NCBI GenBank assembly: GCA_021205305.1
Contig: JAJPXU010000125.1
Location: forward strand, 1-39,887
Reading direction: 5' to 3'
Source of the DNA: Lachnospiraceae bacterium
GTDB taxonomy: Bacteria > Bacillota > Clostridia > Lachnospirales > Lachnospiraceae
DNA length: 39,887 nt
The position numbers were made by a program, and so were the translations under genes. Below are positions 18,273 to 29,643 of the stretch, piece by piece. The notes under the pieces were generated by a model that saw nothing but the letters and a program-made list of their open reading frames with translations, was not told the DNA's origin and searched no databases. Positions within the stretch are counted from its first letter, which is position 1. Every line of letters starts with the position of its first letter.

Positions 18273-18424
18273 TAACATAAGGTATCAGTGGCGGGGGATG
18301 CTTTTTTTGTGTATTTTTACGTGAAAAAATTAACAATCATAAAAAAGTCTTACCTCTGATGCTGTGATACGGAAGAAAGCAAATTTAAAATAAGAGACAA
18401 TTGCAAAGAGAAAGGGGAATGTTT

Positions 18425-18862
18425 ATGCATCTGATTCAGGACGAAAACGGGAATCCGGTTCCATATTCGCACGAAAACGAAGAGCATACGCACACTCATA
18501 CCCATACGTATGAGCATTCACATCCGCATACCCATGAGTACGGTCATGAGGAGGAGCACAACCACTCTCACGAACATTGCGAAGAGCATTGCCATGACCA
18601 TGAAGGCGGATATTCGCATGAGCACTGCGGAGCATGCAATGCGAATGGAAATGAGGCTGCACAAGGTGATAAGATGGTTGCGCTGCTTGACTATATGCTG
18701 AAGCATAACGAACATCACGCCGCTGAGCTTGATCAGGTAGCGGAAAAGCTTCGCGGGGATGGAAAAGAAGCTGCCGCAGAGCAGATCAAAAAAGCAGTGG
18801 ATGAGTTTCAGAAAGGGAATCTCTACCTCAAGCTTGCGCTTTCAATGGTACAGGAAAACTAA
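18425..18862 (+). CDS. Histidine-rich nickel-binding protein (CooJ-like)
   Basis: A 145-residue protein whose first 70 residues hold 20 histidines and the four cysteines of the chain fall at 52, 56, 68 and 71. This is a clear metal-binding tail. The C-terminal half is helical (MVALLDYMLKHNEHHAAEL, KLRGDGKEAAAEQIKKAV). Placed with cooT, cooC and CODH genes, it is probably a nickel store or chaperone comparable to CooJ, though in CooJ the His-rich part is at the C-terminus and I do not claim homology. The start at 18425 has AAAGGGG 8 bases upstream; earlier in-frame TTG and ATG are poorer. No signal peptide is seen, so it should be cytoplasmic. Confidence 0.78.
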   Translation: MHLIQDENGNPVPYSHENEEHTHTHTHTYEHSHPHTHEYGHEEEHNHSHEHCEEHCHDHEGGYSHEHCGACNANGNEAAQGDKMVALLDYMLKHNEHHAAELDQVAEKLRGDGKEAAAEQIKKAVDEFQKGNLYLKLALSMVQEN

Positions 18863-20075: not shown

Positions 20076-21968
20076 ATGGGAGACTTTAAGCTGACAACAA
20101 TTGAGGAGTTTGAAGCGGCTACAAACCGGCTCCTCGAGACAGGGGCAAAAGTGGGCGCTGACGCATACCAGTACCGTGTAAAAAATCAGACGCCGCATTG
20201 CAAGTTTGGTGAGCAGGGTGTCTGCTGCCGTATCTGTACGATGGGACCATGCCGCATTACTCCGAAAGCGCCGCGTGGTATCTGCGGCTGCGACGCGCAT
20301 GGAATTGTGGGTCGTAACTATCTGCGTTTTACCGCCGGCGGAGCGGCGACACACTCAGATCACGGGCGTGAGATTTGCCACACTTTGTATTGCACAGCAC
20401 CGGATGGCAACTATAAGGTGAAAGACCCGGAAAAGCTGATCCGCATTGCGAAAGAATGGGGTGTGGAGACCGAAGGTAAGGATATCTACGATCTGGCTCA
20501 TGAGGTTGCTGTTCTTGCTTTGGGTGAGTATGGAAAAGTATTCGGGCATCAGAACTTTATTAAGAGAGCGCCGAAGCATACCCAGGAGATCTGGGCGAGA
20601 GAAGAGATAGAGCCGCGCGCGATTGACCGCGAGGTATCCTGTGCGATGCATATGACCCATATGGGATGTTCCTCCAAGCCGGAAGCGCTGATTCGTCAGT
20701 CACTGCGCGCAGGTCTGGCTGATGGCTGGGGCGGATCCATGGCCGGAACAGAGTTTTCTGACGTATTGTTTGGTACGCCAATGCCAATCGACACGGAAGC
20801 AAATCTGGGTGTCATGGTAGAAGAGAATGTAAATATTGTAGTCCATGGACATGATCCGTCACTTTCTGAGATGATTTGTGAGTATGCGGACGATCCGGAG
20901 ATGATTGCTTACGCGAAAGAAATGGGAGCAAAGGGCATCACGGTTTCCGGCGTTTGCTGTACCTCCAATGAAGTCGCTATGCGCCGCGGTATCCCGATGG
21001 CAGGTAACTTCCTACAGCAGGAGAATGTCATCCTGACCGGTGCCTGTGAGGCAATTGTTGTTGATGTACAGTGCATTTTCCCGGCAATCGGACCGCTGGC
21101 GAAATGCTTCCATACTAAATTTGTGACGACCTCCCCGATCGCGCAGATGCCGGAGAGCGATTATATCCGCTTCTCACCGGAGAATGCCGGCGAGAATGCA
21201 AAAGCGATTGTAAAGATGGCAATCGAGAACTTTAAAAACAGAAAACCGGAGCTGGTACATATCCCGCAGATGAAGCAGAAGGCGACCGTTGGCTATTCGG
21301 TAGAAGCAATCAAAAAGACACTGGATACCGTGACAAACTCCCAGGTAGATATTACCGGTACGCTGAAGCCGCTCGTAGAATGTGTAAAATCCGGTGTTAT
21401 CCGCGGAGCGGTCGCGATGGTAGGCTGCAACAATCCGAAGGTACGCCCGGATACCGCACACATTGGTCTGATGAAGAAGCTGATTGAAAACGATATCATT
21501 ATCGTTGCGTCCGGCTGCTCCGCGCAGGCGGCTGCGAAGGCAGGCCTGATGGATAAGCGCGCCCGCGATCTGTGCGGCGCCGGCCTGAAGAGAGTATGTC
21601 AGCTGGCGGATATTCCTCCGGTGCTTCATATGGGCTCCTGCGTGGATATCAGCCGTATGATGATTCTCGTATCTGATCTCTCGAAGGATTCCGGATGGAA
21701 TATTTCTGAGCTTCCGGTAGTGGGCTGTGCGCCGGAGTGGATGTCTGAAAAGGCAGTTTCGATCGGCAACTATGTTGTAGCAACCGGCCTTGACACCTTC
21801 CTCGGCGTTGACCCGTATGCAAGCGGCTCCTCAGAGGTGGAAGGTCTGCTGCAGGGCGGTATCCGTGACTGGGTAGAAGCATGCTACACCGTTGAGACGG
21901 ATATTGATAAGCTAGTGGATAAGATGATTGACCGCATTGAAGAGAAGAGAACGGCGCTTGGAATCTGA
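20076..21968 (+). CDS. acsA: Carbon monoxide dehydrogenase catalytic subunit (AcsA/CooS)
   Basis: Ni-Fe CODH that reduces CO2 to CO for acetyl-CoA synthase. All metal ligands can be seen in the 630 residues. D- and B-cluster cysteines are C42, C50, C51, C54, C59 and C70. C-cluster ligands are His in VVHGHDP (257/259), C295 in GVCCT, C333 in VQC, C451 in VGCNNPK, C481 in SGCSAQ and C522 in HMGSC. Spacing follows the structurally known CODHs apart from a 9-residue shorter loop between the last two. GGAGG is about 8 bases before the ATG. It is flanked by two cooC genes and, downstream, by a partial homologue. It is very likely the CODH partner of AcsB. Confidence 0.96.
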   Translation: MGDFKLTTIEEFEAATNRLLETGAKVGADAYQYRVKNQTPHCKFGEQGVCCRICTMGPCRITPKAPRGICGCDAHGIVGRNYLRFTAGGAATHSDHGREICHTLYCTAPDGNYKVKDPEKLIRIAKEWGVETEGKDIYDLAHEVAVLALGEYGKVFGHQNFIKRAPKHTQEIWAREEIEPRAIDREVSCAMHMTHMGCSSKPEALIRQSLRAGLADGWGGSMAGTEFSDVLFGTPMPIDTEANLGVMVEENVNIVVHGHDPSLSEMICEYADDPEMIAYAKEMGAKGITVSGVCCTSNEVAMRRGIPMAGNFLQQENVILTGACEAIVVDVQCIFPAIGPLAKCFHTKFVTTSPIAQMPESDYIRFSPENAGENAKAIVKMAIENFKNRKPELVHIPQMKQKATVGYSVEAIKKTLDTVTNSQVDITGTLKPLVECVKSGVIRGAVAMVGCNNPKVRPDTAHIGLMKKLIENDIIIVASGCSAQAAAKAGLMDKRARDLCGAGLKRVCQLADIPPVLHMGSCVDISRMMILVSDLSKDSGWNISELPVVGCAPEWMSEKAVSIGNYVVATGLDTFLGVDPYASGSSEVEGLLQGGIRDWVEACYTVETDIDKLVDKMIDRIEEKRTALGI

Positions 21969-22013: not shown

Positions 22014-22790
22014 ATGAAAATAGCGATTACCGGTAAGGGCGGTGTAGGAAAGACAACTTTTGCGGCGACACTTGCCCGGCTTTATGCGGATGAGAGGCGT
22101 CCTGTCCTGGCGGCGGACGCGGATCCGGACGCGAACCTGGGGCTGGCGCTTGGGTTTGATGAAGAGGCTCTTGATGAGATCGTCCCGATCACGAAAATGC
22201 GCAAGCTTGTCCAGGAACGCACCGGCGCAGATGAATTCAACAAGATTTTTAAGCTGAATCCGAAGGTGGATGATATTCCGGACAAGTACGCAAAGAAATG
22301 CAATGGTGTAAAGCTTCTGGTGCTTGGTACCGTTGAGACCGGCGGAAGCGGCTGCGTCTGCCCGGAGCATGTCATGCTGAAAAGGATTATCAACCATCTG
22401 ATGCTGCGTTCAGACGATGTTGTAATCCTGGACATGGAAGCCGGGCTGGAGCATCTCGGCCGGGGCACGACAAGCGGCATGGACGCATTCATTGTTGTGA
22501 TCGAGCCGGGCGCGAGAAGTGTACAGACCTACCGTAATGTGAAAAGACTGGCGGTCGATCTCGGCGTGAAACAGGTTTACGTGGTCGCGAATAAGGTGAG
22601 GGATGAAAAGGACGAAGCTTTTATCCAATCCAAGATTCCACCGGAAGACCTGTTGGGTATCATTCATTATAATACGGAAGTCATTGACGCGGACCGAAAT
22701 GGTTCATCGCCTTACGATTACAGCCAGAGTGCCGTAGCGGAGATTCGTTCCATTAAAGAGAAGCTGGATCAGCCCGGCGCACTCTCCTGA
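22014..22790 (+). CDS. cooC: CODH/ACS nickel-insertion ATPase CooC, second copy
   Basis: A second CooC/AcsF-type P-loop ATPase, 258 residues. It has GKGGVGKTTFA, DADPDANLGLALG, the Cys-x-Cys in GSGCVCPEHVML, DMEAGLEHLGRGT and NKVRDEKDE. It differs from the first copy in length, in its N-terminus and in sequence, so it is a separate paralogue and not a recent duplicate. It starts 45 bases after acsA with only a modest ribosome site. It may serve CODH, or ACS as AcsF does; this cannot be told from the sequence. A new promoter lies between it and the next gene. Confidence 0.92.
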   Translation: MKIAITGKGGVGKTTFAATLARLYADERRPVLAADADPDANLGLALGFDEEALDEIVPITKMRKLVQERTGADEFNKIFKLNPKVDDIPDKYAKKCNGVKLLVLGTVETGGSGCVCPEHVMLKRIINHLMLRSDDVVILDMEAGLEHLGRGTTSGMDAFIVVIEPGARSVQTYRNVKRLAVDLGVKQVYVVANKVRDEKDEAFIQSKIPPEDLLGIIHYNTEVIDADRNGSSPYDYSQSAVAEIRSIKEKLDQPGALS

Positions 22791-22890: not shown

Positions 22891-23583
22891 ATGAATGATT
22901 CTGCATTACCAAAACTTGAGGTGACAGACATCATCCAGGCACTGGATGGCGTCTGCAATTCTAAGGTCGACACGACCGGCTCAACGAAGCCATTGCTGGA
23001 ATGTGTCGTTTCCGGTGTACTCCGGGGCGCGGCTGTTATGCTTGGAACGGATGGATCCGAGGTTAGAGACACGGAGGAGTATGTTGCTCTTTTCAAAAAG
23101 CTGATTGCCAATGATATTGTCGTATTGGCAATTGGCTACCCGGTAAAGATTGCGGCGGAGGCCGGACTGCTGAATCTGGATGCGAAAGACCTCTGCGGCG
23201 CGGGACTGAAACGTGTCTGTGAACTGGCGGAGATTCCGCCTGTATTACCGCTTGGAGGTCTGGAGAATGTAGGCAATGTTGTGACGATTGCAACGGCGCT
23301 CTGCAATGATTCCGGACTCACCGTTCCTCAGTTGCCGGTGGTTGGCTGTGACGCAGCTGGTGTTACGGCGCAGGCAGTGGAACTTGGGAATACGTTTGCG
23401 GGGTTGGGCGTAGATACCTTTATTGGCATTATGCCGTATGAGGGATCTCTGGATGATGTCATAGCCGCAAGCGGTCTTAAGAACGGGCCGGATGCCACAC
23501 AGACAGTTTCCTCAAATCTGGACGAGCTGGCTGATGCACTGATCGTGGATATCGAAAAGAAACGCTCGGCGATTGCAATATGA
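22891..23583 (+). CDS. Stand-alone CODH C-terminal-domain-like protein lacking C-cluster ligands
   Basis: I do not know a name for this 230-residue protein. It aligns to residues 409-630 of the adjacent CODH, without gaps for at least the first 150 positions (constant offset 398). It keeps DLCGAGLKRVC, EIPPVLP and LPVVGC. CODH cluster ligands C451, C481 and C522 are replaced by Thr53, Tyr83 and Leu124; only the non-ligand Cys153 remains. The N-terminal domains with B, D and the other C-cluster ligands are absent. It cannot be a CODH in itself. It has its own promoter, a GAGG site 8 bases before the ATG and an open frame, so it is not simple decay. Possible roles are a partner, scaffold or maturation factor for CODH/ACS. 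Confidence 0.85.
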   Translation: MNDSALPKLEVTDIIQALDGVCNSKVDTTGSTKPLLECVVSGVLRGAAVMLGTDGSEVRDTEEYVALFKKLIANDIVVLAIGYPVKIAAEAGLLNLDAKDLCGAGLKRVCELAEIPPVLPLGGLENVGNVVTIATALCNDSGLTVPQLPVVGCDAAGVTAQAVELGNTFAGLGVDTFIGIMPYEGSLDDVIAASGLKNGPDATQTVSSNLDELADALIVDIEKKRSAIAI

Positions 23584-23711: not shown

Positions 23712-25841
23712 GTGACTTTATTTGATATTATCTATAGCGGAAATGATGAATTATTTGCCCGCGCTGATAAGGCGATCTACGACGCGATTGCCCAGTACGG
23801 CGAGGACAAAGCGGTGGCTTTTCCGGATACTGCATACAGCCTTCCGTGCTACTATGGTGTGACCGGCCAGAAGGTAGGCAATCTTGGCGAATTAAAAGCT
23901 GCGCTGGCGAATGTAAAAGAGACTCTGATGGGCAGAAAACCAAGGTTAAATGATGTATTCAATTCCGGCATTGCTTCTGCACTGTGTGCAGAATTTCTGG
24001 AAGTCCTGAAATATATTGACGGTGCTGCTCCTTATGAATTACCTCGTTATGGACATTTGTCAGATGCAATGATCCGTGAGCTTGGTGTACCGCTTGTTAC
24101 AGGCGATATTCCGGGTGTAGCTGCTATTATCGGTACAGCACCGACTGCGCAGGATGCGGTGGATCTGGTGAAGAGTTATCAGGCACAGGGTATTCTTGTG
24201 ACATTGACCGGCGGCGTAATCGACCAGTGTGAATCTCTCGGCTTAAAGACTGGTTTTAATATCCGTGTCATCCCGCTTGGTGATGAGATGCAGTCGGTGA
24301 TTCATGTAGTATCTGTAGCAGTACGTGCCGCTCTGATTTTCGGAAATATCACTCCTGGAGATCTTCCTGGTCTGGAGAAATACACGATGGATCGTGTATT
24401 TGCGTTTGTTAACGCGTATGGTCCTCTTGCCGACGAAGTATATGCATACGGCGGAGGCGCAATTGCGCTTGGTTTCCCGGTTATCTCAAATGAGGATCGC
24501 TACAGAGTACCAAAGAGCCTGATTTATCAGGAGGATGTGTCCAAGTTCAACGCAACTTCTCTGGAAGCGAGAGACATTAAGCTTAAGATTACGAACATTG
24601 ACATTCCGGTAGCGTTTGCTTCTGCATTCGAGGGTGAGATTATTCGCCGCGGAGATATGCAGGTTGAGTTTGACGGCTCCCGCGTGGACTGCTTCGAGCT
24701 GGTTCACAACAAAGATGCTTCTGAAGTGGAAGACCACAAGATTGAAGTCATCGGACCGGATATCGATGAGTTCGAAGTTGGCAGCAAGCACTCCATTGGT
24801 TACATAGTAGAAGTGGCAGGCAAGAACATGCAGGCAGATTTTGAGCCGGTATTCGAGCGTAAATTCCACTCTTACCTGAACTGTATCGAAGGTTTGATGC
24901 ACACCGGTCAGCGTGACATGATCCGTATTCGCGTCAGCAAAGATACCTTTAATGCCGGTTTCCGTCTGAAACATCTTGGCGAAGTCCTTTACGCAAAGGT
25001 AAAGAGCGAGTTCGCAGCTGTTGTAGACAAATGCCAGGTGAAGGTTATCACCGATCCGGAAATGTGTACAAAGCTTCGCCATGAGCTGGCAATTCCGATG
25101 TTTGACAAACGTGATGAACGTCTGACGACCCTGACAGATGAGGGCGTTGACGTTTACTATAGCTGCATCATGTGCCAGGCATTCTCTCCGAGCCACGTTT
25201 GTGTGGTTACTCCGGAGCGTCTTGGACTGTGCGGCGCTGTTTCATGGCTGGACGCGAAAGCGACCAACGAACTGGATCCGCAGGGCCCGTGCCAGGTGAT
25301 TACCAAAGAGAAAGTCATCGACGAGCGCATTGGTGAGTACGAAGACGTCAATGAGGCGGTTCGTAAATTCTCCCAGGGCGCACTGGAGGATGTATCTCTG
25401 TATTCCATCATCGAAAAGCCGATGACAAGCTGCGGCTGCTTCGAGTGTATCTGTGGAATCGAGCCGCTCTCCAACGGTGTCTGCATCGCGAACCGTGAGT
25501 ATGCAGGCATGACCCCTATCGGCATGACCTTCTCCGAGCTGGCTTCCATGACCGGCGGCGGTGTACAGACCCCGGGCTTCATGGGCCATGGCAAGCACTT
25601 CATCTCTTCAAAGAAGTTTATGAAGGCAGAAGGAGGCATCGCCCGTATCGTATGGATGCCGAAAGACCTCAAAGACCAGGTAGCAGAACGCCTGAACGAG
25701 TCTGCAAAAGAGCTGTACGGAATCGATAACTTCGTCGACATGATTGCGGATGAGACCGTTGTTACCGAAGATCCGGAAGCTTTGCTCGAGTTCCTGACCG
25801 AGAAGGGTCATCCTGCACTTGAGATGGAACCGATGATGTAA
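23712..25841 (+). CDS. acsB: Acetyl-CoA synthase beta subunit
   Basis: Forms acetyl-CoA from CO, the methyl of the corrinoid protein and CoA at the Ni-Ni-[4Fe-4S] A-cluster. The 709-residue product has C485-x2-C488-x8-C497-x9-C507 for the iron-sulfur cluster and C574-G-C576 for the distal nickel. This is the same spacing as in the Moorella enzyme. HTGQRDMIRIRVSKDTF and GGGVQTPGFMGHGKHF are also typical. Start is GTG 23712 with AGGAGG (23699-23704) upstream. It is slightly shorter than Moorella AcsB at the N-terminus. A 405-base structured gap separates it from acsD. Confidence 0.96.
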   Translation: MTLFDIIYSGNDELFARADKAIYDAIAQYGEDKAVAFPDTAYSLPCYYGVTGQKVGNLGELKAALANVKETLMGRKPRLNDVFNSGIASALCAEFLEVLKYIDGAAPYELPRYGHLSDAMIRELGVPLVTGDIPGVAAIIGTAPTAQDAVDLVKSYQAQGILVTLTGGVIDQCESLGLKTGFNIRVIPLGDEMQSVIHVVSVAVRAALIFGNITPGDLPGLEKYTMDRVFAFVNAYGPLADEVYAYGGGAIALGFPVISNEDRYRVPKSLIYQEDVSKFNATSLEARDIKLKITNIDIPVAFASAFEGEIIRRGDMQVEFDGSRVDCFELVHNKDASEVEDHKIEVIGPDIDEFEVGSKHSIGYIVEVAGKNMQADFEPVFERKFHSYLNCIEGLMHTGQRDMIRIRVSKDTFNAGFRLKHLGEVLYAKVKSEFAAVVDKCQVKVITDPEMCTKLRHELAIPMFDKRDERLTTLTDEGVDVYYSCIMCQAFSPSHVCVVTPERLGLCGAVSWLDAKATNELDPQGPCQVITKEKVIDERIGEYEDVNEAVRKFSQGALEDVSLYSIIEKPMTSCGCFECICGIEPLSNGVCIANREYAGMTPIGMTFSELASMTGGGVQTPGFMGHGKHFISSKKFMKAEGGIARIVWMPKDLKDQVAERLNESAKELYGIDNFVDMIADETVVTEDPEALLEFLTEKGHPALEMEPMM

Positions 25842-28592: not shown

Positions 28593-29378
28593 ATGGCAAA
28601 ATTTGTAACGATTGGTGAGAGACTTTCCACCACAGCTCCTGCAGTCAACAAAGCGTTTACTGAGAGAGACCCGGAGCCGATTCTGAAAAGAGCAAAACAG
28701 CAGCTTGATGCCGGCGCAGTTTACCTTGATGTAAACATCGGACCTGCTGAGGCAGATGGTGAGGATCTGATGAAGTGGGCAGTGCAGCTCCTTCAGAGCA
28801 ACTTTGACAATGTTCCTCTGGCGCTGGATACTTCCAACAAGAAAGCAATCGAGGCAGGTATTTCTGTTTACAACCGCTCCAAAGGAAAACCGATTGTGAA
28901 CTCTGCGGATGCTTCCGGAAGAATCGAGAATATTGATCTTGCAGCGGCAAACGACGCAATCGTGATTGCTCTTTGCAACGGCGAAGGCATTGCAAAAGAC
29001 AATGATGAGCGTATGGGTTATTGCCAGATGCTTCTTGAGAGAGGCATGGAACTGGGTATGGAGCCGACAGATATGTGGTTCGATCCGCTCTTCCTGGTAG
29101 TAAAGGGTATGCAGGACAAGCAGATGGAAATTCTTGAGTTTATCAAGATGCTCTCTGATATGGGTCTGAATTCTACCGGCGGTCTTTCCAATAACTCCAA
29201 TGGTATGCCAAAGCACATTCGCCCGATCATGGATTCTGCGCTCGTAGCTATGGCTATGATGCAGGGCCTTACCTCCGCGATCGTAAACCCGAATGACCTT
29301 CGCCTGATGGAAACCATTAAGTCATGCGACGTATTTAAGAGCAACACTCTGTATGCGGATTCCTATCTGGAGATCTGA
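28593..29378 (+). CDS. acsE: Methyltetrahydrofolate:corrinoid iron-sulfur protein methyltransferase
   Basis: Transfers the methyl group from methyl-tetrahydrofolate to the cobalt of AcsCD. It is a pterin-binding TIM barrel of 261 residues, with YLDVNIGPAEADGEDLMKWA, NSADASGRIENIDLAA, TDMWFDPLFLVVKGMQ and STGGLSNNSNGMPKHIRPI (quoted in parts). These hold the Asp/Asn residues that contact the pterin in known structures. GGAG precedes the ATG. It is followed by a perfect palindrome and a strong terminator, so it closes the acsDCE operon. Confidence 0.96.
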   Translation: MAKFVTIGERLSTTAPAVNKAFTERDPEPILKRAKQQLDAGAVYLDVNIGPAEADGEDLMKWAVQLLQSNFDNVPLALDTSNKKAIEAGISVYNRSKGKPIVNSADASGRIENIDLAAANDAIVIALCNGEGIAKDNDERMGYCQMLLERGMELGMEPTDMWFDPLFLVVKGMQDKQMEILEFIKMLSDMGLNSTGGLSNNSNGMPKHIRPIMDSALVAMAMMQGLTSAIVNPNDLRLMETIKSCDVFKSNTLYADSYLEI

Positions 29379-29393
29379 TGCTGAACAGCTGTT

Positions 29394-29427
29394 CAGAACA
29401 GCATCGAAAGGGCTGTACGCATACAGC
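29394..29427 (+). repeat. Dispersed element, partial copy 3 (after acsE)
   Basis: CAGAACAGCATCG is identical over 13 bases to 7401-7413. It is followed by a bulged stem GAAAG-GCTGTA / TACAGC-CTTTC. The remaining block is found as an inverted piece at 29644-29661. Confidence 0.45.
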
Positions 29428-29529
29428 TTTCCTCCGCAAATGCAGCACAGGGATTTTGTGGCGGATAAAACACTGCAGAATCAATGCCGCCTGTTGCTGC
29501 GTGCGGATGGAATCATTATGAAACGGACT

Positions 29530-29570
29530 CATACCCAGGAAGTATTTTGTTACCCCTGGGTATGTTTTTT
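29530..29570 (+). terminator. Terminator of the acsDCE operon
   Basis: Perfect 10-bp stem CATACCCAGG (29530-29539) / CCTGGGTATG (29555-29564) followed by T6 (29565-29570). Confidence 0.88.
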
Positions 29571-29643
29571 CAAGGTATTTTTTGTTCGGATCAGCAGGCT
29601 ATTTGCCGCTAATGCGTCATATGTCTGTGGCTGATGGACGTTT

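Follow-up and report, generated by a model that had tools for sequence, protein, structure and literature searches.

Why should a gene cluster for carbon monoxide dehydrogenase (CODH) and acetyl-CoA synthase (ACS) hold, beside an intact CODH gene, a second gene for a piece of CODH stripped of its catalytic ligands? The question is raised by a 39,887-nucleotide stretch from a Lachnospiraceae bacterium (GCA_021205305.1, contig JAJPXU010000125.1, positions 1 to 39,887, hereafter the window), in which positions 22891-23583 encode a 230-residue product that is called SA here. By its alignment, SA is a complete, stand-alone Rossmann fold 2 (RF2) domain of CODH, and it very probably has a function in the CODH/ACS system, though not a catalytic one. 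The explanation I favour, though with somewhat less than even confidence, is that SA is a duplicated RF2 of a Lachnospiraceae-type CODH that now acts as a non-catalytic partner: it would dock on the ACS A1 domain and there hold a place during assembly or cap the gas tunnel. The gene and its source domain are:

22891..23583, + strand: SA, stand-alone non-catalytic CODH RF2 paralogue; open reading frame (ORF) with ATG start, 230 residues
20076..21968, + strand: CODH (acsA), intact, 630 residues, with C451, C481 and C522 (Pfam and NCBIfam scans, alignment)
21270..21965, + strand: RF2 of the window's CODH (residues 399-630), the kind of domain from which SA was copied (BLASTP and structure matches)

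BLASTP aligned SA 1-230 with CODH 399-630 at 100 identical (43%) and 150 positive of 232 positions, with 2 gap positions (E 1e-62) and an offset that stays at 398 as far as the gap near the C-terminus. An earlier note on this DNA had proposed the same homology for CODH residues 409-630, with a constant offset over about 150 residues; the kinship stands and the true extent is longer. Its picture of a duplicated CODH domain that lost the catalytic ligands (C451 to T53, C481 to Y83, C522 to L124) while keeping the stretches DLCGAGLKRVC and LPVVGC agrees with the window's SA in every detail, and of the intact frame, ribosome site and promoter that it described, the frame is there, the ribosome site is plausible and the promoter could not be found. 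Specifically, GAGGCGA precedes the SA start in all 22 upstream stretches compared and plausibly serves as the ribosome site, while a search of the + strand between cooC2 and SA revealed no sigma-70-like promoter (3 sites in the stretch scanned against 2.5 in shuffles), and a separate SA promoter in this interval was consequently dropped as a candidate.

SA begins at CODH residue 399, without the N-terminal helical domain, the B and D clusters, or Rossmann fold 1. It belongs to Pfam PF03063 (Prismane/CODH; 78.5 bits, cut-off 27) and to no other Pfam family, and NCBIfam gives CO_DH_cata alone; against the NCBIfam CODH equivalog TIGR01702 it reaches 86.7 bits where the curated cut-off is 478, so that the gene would go unnoticed in annotation based on the NCBI CODH model. 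Two matches were found in the whole genome, which is 91% complete: SA and one CODH. The possibility that SA completes a split CODH was ruled out, as the adjoining CODH, whose ORF ends at 21968 and thus 923 bases before the SA start, is full length and has its cysteines. This CODH has the length of the Clostridium autoethanogenum enzyme (630 residues) and lacks the extensions seen in Moorella.

I take C451, C481 and C522 to be C-cluster ligands, as in CODH structures, and K559 to be the counterpart of K563 in C. hydrogenoformans CODH-II. Across the 25 distinct SA genes that were found and 63 CODHs, these positions read:

23047..23049, + strand: T53, at the position of C451; T in 16, G in 7 and C in 2 of 25 SA, C in 63/63 CODHs
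23137..23139, + strand: Y83, at the position of C481; Y in 25/25 SA, C in 63/63 CODHs
23260..23262, + strand: L124, at the position of C522; L in 25/25 SA, C in 63/63 CODHs
23371..23373, + strand: Q161, at the position of K559; Q in 25/25 SA, K in 63/63 CODHs
23179..23244, + strand: SA residues 97-118 (DAKDLCGAGLKRVCELAEIPPV), the most CODH-like of the stretches compared; CODH consensus residue at 91% of positions

SA therefore lacks the cysteines required of a CODH catalytic subunit. Two SA, those of genomes G028 and N119, keep a cysteine at position 53, and because these two branch first in the SA tree, the loss of the ligands can be followed. The change extends beyond the ligands themselves. 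Among the 36 positions lying no more than four residues from one of the four sites, 21 are conserved in both groups but differ between SA and CODH; among the other 194 positions the number is 26 (p 3e-8; the loop windows were initially drawn by eye and then fixed at 3 to 6 residues around the changed sites, giving p 3e-5 to 3e-8), while conservation among SA was 29/36 near these sites and 140/194 elsewhere. The C-cluster loops have thus been replaced by new conserved sequence that is as conserved as the rest of the protein and is not drifting. Identity between the SA and CODH consensus falls to 25-38% at the three cysteine-site stretches, against 69% over SA 21-46 and 91% over SA 97-118, and the mean net charge is -17 for SA versus -6.5 for CODH RF2.

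Close to the changed sites, SA has residues that never vary among its copies and differ from CODH: Y83, P84, G123-N126, D154, G157 and Q161. They might line a small-molecule site, which would make SA a metabolic sensor or an enzyme with a docking loop that was simply inherited. I consider this improbable: Prismane in Pfam and CO_DH_cata in NCBIfam are the only families detected, SA is fixed within the CODH/ACS operon, and the docking insert is better kept than the ACS-type-specific positions that follow it.

This docking insert is the putative link between SA and ACS. The acetogen CODH is bound by the A1 domain of ACS, and in the C. autoethanogenum complex a loop of RF2 and its helix alphaA make the contact, as described in PMC11474084. 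The corresponding elements are:

22945..23028, + strand: SA 19-46 (DGVCNSKVD...), ACS-type docking loop and helix alphaA; ACS-type-specific positions kept, model helix 35-41
21324..21356, + strand: docking insert D417-T427 of the CODH, missing from monofunctional CODHs (alignment)

ACS-type-specific positions were defined by setting two groups, 16 CODHs whose genes have acsB nearby and 63 CODHs from the genus and family (30 family CODHs being counted as ACS-type with acsB presence unchecked), against 20 monofunctional CODHs. The insert is present in SA and in the 6 ACS-linked CODHs displayed and missing from the 10 monofunctional CODHs displayed, and D417, V419, N421, S422 and D425 occur in none of the 20. 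SA keeps 9 of the 10 ACS-type-specific positions in CODH 408-445, compared with 12 of 31 after 445 (p 0.009, for a boundary that was set after the paper and the alignment were known) and 0 of 3 before 408. Judged by these residues, SA keeps the ACS-type docking loop and helix, both of which stand at the start of RF2 as in the C. autoethanogenum-type CODH. Four further CODHs of the ACS-linked kind (L127, L129, L137, L139), in whose fetched stretches no acsB match was found, were placed in neither set; they are 52-56% identical to the window's CODH, and the docking insert is seen in three of the four, those displayed.

Having lost the metal-cluster ligands while keeping the part that in related enzymes grips ACS, SA probably serves ACS as a partner or plug without catalysis of its own. 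The sequence of events would have begun with a duplication of CODH RF2 into a separate gene and the loss of its C-cluster ligands. Loop and helix of SA may then dock on ACS A1 at the site that CODH itself uses, a step to which I give a shade less confidence than to the explanation as a whole. On ACS that is detached from CODH, SA bound in this way would lie over the opening of the gas tunnel and cap it and, having no C-cluster, would bring no CO, for example during nickel loading near CooC2 or while ACS awaits CODH; if docking is granted, such a capping or placeholder role is an even matter. A doubtful variant is that SA is a dedicated ACS-capping subunit from a second, more recent duplication of RF2, with CODH-free ACS-SA complexes controlling the access of CO to the A-cluster.

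That SA does something is far better supported. All 25 copies are exactly 230 residues long, and the median ratio of nonsynonymous to synonymous substitution rates (dN/dS, Nei-Gojobori) was 0.057 over the 48 of 300 SA pairs with 0.1<dS<1 (the other 252 fell outside this range, and pairs are not independent). This lies near the 0.044 of the same domain in CODH (residues 401-630); the medians for CODH 1-400, cooC2 and acsB were 0.018, 0.041 and 0.051. SA is thus under strong purifying selection and is not debris: the 25 intact relatives rule out a chance ORF or frame artefact, and the dN/dS rules out a pseudogene. In a tree of 16 of the 25 SA, 26 CODHs from genomes with SA, 12 from genomes without SA and 31 other CODHs (one present twice), SA formed one clade with support 100/100 on a very long stem. 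The CODHs of SA-bearing genomes did not form one group, with at least 2 changes forced by well supported branches, so that either SA was lost or transferred repeatedly or the short domain misleads.

The neighbours between which SA lies are:

22014..22790, + strand: cooC2, CooC/AcsF-type P-loop ATPase (Pfam CbiA/AAA_31); so called here from its position
23712..25841, + strand: acsB, ACS alpha/beta, A1 domain at about residues 1-300 (NF040764, 1038.8 bits)

The window's genus comprised 47 genomes including its own, of which 22 have an intact SA, one has the start of SA at a contig end (G012), 14 show a CODH match but none to SA, and 10 show neither. Three further intact copies (L116, L117, L119) bring the total to the 25 distinct genes. 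The carriers form a Lachnospiraceae group, labelled as Lachnospiraceae, Clostridiales, Eubacteriales or, in two cases, Marvinbryantia, and several come from isolates named Lapin (French for rabbit). Beyond these, no other intact stand-alone RF2 was found among the 299 family, 391 class, 392 order and 398 phylum genomes sampled, some of which are shared between samples. In the family sample (59 with a match), every frame had at least 559 residues, save for the window's SA, a 79-residue piece at the start of contig G151:C143 and a fragment in G188. The shortest non-SA frames in the class sample (61 with a match) had 412 (G698), 467 (G474) and 511 residues (G653); those of the order sample (18 with a match) all had at least 631, at a threshold of E 1e-50 that a strongly diverged copy could escape. 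In the phylum sample (162 with a match), searched with a mixed SA and CODH profile, the shortest non-SA frames among the matches listed had 374 (G1117) and 433 residues (G1172). The G1117 locus (L164:3249-4283) holds a 5'-truncated CODH of monofunctional type, 344 residues, that by eye keeps the cysteines of the C-terminal domain; the 8 kb fetched there gave no match to acsB.

The fragment in G188, a genome of another genus (94% complete), matched SA residues 126-167 by tblastn at about L165 6347-6520, bears SA-type residues (GCDAAGVSAQAVELG) and, read by eye, continues in frame into a stretch like the SA C-terminus, with an apparent internal deletion. A CODH search of this genome gave no match, although an empty search alone proves little; as a single case, the fragment is suggestive of SA loss after CODH loss. 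Together with the clean absences in relatives, it could be taken as a sign that SA is a functionless, decaying duplicate or an assembly artefact. This is very improbable, given 25 intact copies of identical length, a dN/dS of about 0.06 and a single fully supported clade, and the selection and conservation results already contradict it. The earlier note had placed SA between cooC and acsB and suggested checking dN/dS, the tree against CODH domains, and whether homologues stand beside acsA/acsB or are scattered as decayed copies. All of this came out in favour of a maintained gene: SA lies between cooC2 and acsB in 25/25 cases, and the G188 fragment, with no CODH detected there, is the only decayed copy found.

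Several results weigh against docking on ACS. The conserved former C-cluster face is not explained by docking alone. In the model of SA by itself, the docking loop (residues 24-33) has a predicted local confidence (pLDDT) below 50. Over the whole domain, SA keeps 21 of 44 ACS-type-specific positions and 32 of 48 universal ones (p 0.09), so that the retention is local, and the boundary that makes it visible was chosen late, as said above. In 11 of the 14 genus genomes with a CODH and no SA, cooC2 adjoins acsB directly, -4 to 51 bases apart. No SA remnants were found between cooC2 and acsB in these 11, where tblastn covered the two gaps longer than 20 bases (G005, G045); for the remaining three (G023, G026, G031) the junction lies beyond the contig end. 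Signs of coevolution with CODH and ACS are mixed as well. Of the changes mapped onto the CODH tree, those on branches within SA-bearing genomes fall 152 times in the N-part and 126 times in the C-part, which starts near residue 401; on the other branches the figures are 1337 and 738 (p 0.002, with the caveat that changes mapped in this way lack independence). The ratios of C-part to N-part branch length were 1.72 for genomes with SA, 0.89 for those without, 1.20 for the family and 0.69 for mixed branches. The excess is missing in three SA-bearing genomes (G028 1.00, N116 1.00, N119 0.90), and fixed changes at conserved CODH sites numbered 5 in each part (p 0.34), with no excess in the C-part.

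On the side of ACS, residues 1-312 of AcsB match 6yua_A and 6ytt_A, and the A1 domain occurs, by my grouping, as two alleles in 15 SA-bearing genomes (G000, G016, G017, G018 and G021 versus G007-G011, G013-G015, G019 and G020). All 58 segregating sites lie within residues 6-274 (window 23727-24533), whereas from residue 301 onwards, compared in 50-residue blocks, identity to the window's AcsB is 88-100%; the alleles are a domain-sized exchange that ends near the A1/A2 boundary. None of the 56 variable SA sites follows the two alleles, which also speaks against an SA-A1 contact, and of 69 CODH sites two do, V437I in the docking helix and S536A.

The relative excess of RF2 changes in CODHs of SA-bearing genomes would suit a subunit on the CODH side, one whose rewritten face packs against the CODH dimer, with a role in regulation or in shielding electron transfer and a position like that of the archaeal epsilon subunit. 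The C-cluster loops of CODH face the rest of the enzyme, and it is these loops that are newly and strongly conserved in SA. Archaeal epsilon, whose main element is a single Rossmann fold, is described as binding CODH (PMC11474084). There is no evident reason for such a subunit to retain an ACS-type docking insert, Prismane is the only Pfam family of SA, and few conserved CODH sites have changed; this alternative seems unlikely, if less so than the small-molecule site.

The constant position directly after cooC2 and before acsB (25/25) invites yet another explanation, namely that SA is a maturation or assembly factor working with CooC2, offering a CODH-like docking surface or holding an apo-subunit during nickel insertion into ACS or CODH. 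The almost unchanged residues 97-118 could be a site that an assembly factor recognises. SA is of no P-loop family, has no His-rich stretch by eye and has lost the C-cluster ligand positions, and cooC2 and acsB stand together without it in 11 related genomes. Maturation is thus also unlikely, but a little more credible than the CODH-side subunit. Among the scaffold, decoy, tunnel partner and maturation factor that had been suggested for SA at the outset, an ACS-docking partner is the best supported, all of them being unproved.

Two more ORFs of the locus have no Pfam match. One of 153 residues with a TTG start (window 18401-18862) lies ahead of cooC1 and has genus relatives that are 47-88% identical; the other, of 93 residues (window 29353-29634), overlaps the end of acsE and was seen in only 4 of the relatives' loci searched.

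Known systems offer both the fold and the family of SA, while its form and probable role were not found described. No SA-like protein and no SA-type control of CO access to ACS were met in the open-access literature searched; as this leaves subscription journals mostly outside, it speaks only weakly for novelty. Sequences that lack any of the cluster motifs were left out, by its own account, of a survey of CODHs from the human gut (PMC11338639), which would thus have discarded a protein of this type. At the heart of a CO2-fixation pathway that is thought to be ancient stands CODH/ACS; the assembly of ACS and the retention of CO in its tunnel without an attached CODH are open questions for which SA would be a natural tool, and a capping SA, if true, would add a level of control over CO access to the A-cluster.

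With the nickel maturation proteins CooC, CooT and CooJ, SA shares neither a P-loop ATPase domain in Pfam nor, by eye, a His-rich stretch, such as forms the nickel site of CooJ. Pfam presumably holds an epsilon-subunit family, and SA, found in PF03063 alone, is not part of it; archaeal epsilon was also not among the 50 fold-match rows listed for SA, which excludes nothing. Epsilon (CdhB) resembles SA as an extra chain with a single Rossmann fold that binds CODH, but it buries the D-cluster (PMC11474084). CooS-V is likewise a CODH scaffold with an altered C-cluster site that lacks one cysteine (7b7q; PMC9311411), yet it is a full-length enzyme with a modified cluster and SA a lone domain. Compared with the RF2 of ACS-linked AcsA of the C. 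autoethanogenum type (PDB 6ytt, whose chain 6ytt_B was matched from residue 401), SA is a separate gene, strongly acidic, with the ligands and K559 replaced and the loops rewritten.

The nearest precedent is the acsA of C. autoethanogenum (CAETHG_1621/1620), in which an in-frame TGA falls at this very domain boundary, leaving a first coding sequence of 1,203 bp and a downstream one of 684 bp; the authors report that they did not find the second piece separately translated (PMC4895105). The split gene keeps its ligand cysteines, whereas SA is a second gene without them. ACS A1, finally, shares the fold of SA but is ancient and fused to A2/A3, while SA is a separate ORF nearer to the Lachnospiraceae CODH (43% identity); the profile-profile match between the two is weak (P 0.03), and the fold comparison is the sole support for their kinship. 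As A1 has itself been proposed to be an ancient duplicate of RF2, SA may be a modern replay of that event, and offers a case for studying this proposed origin in living gut acetogens.
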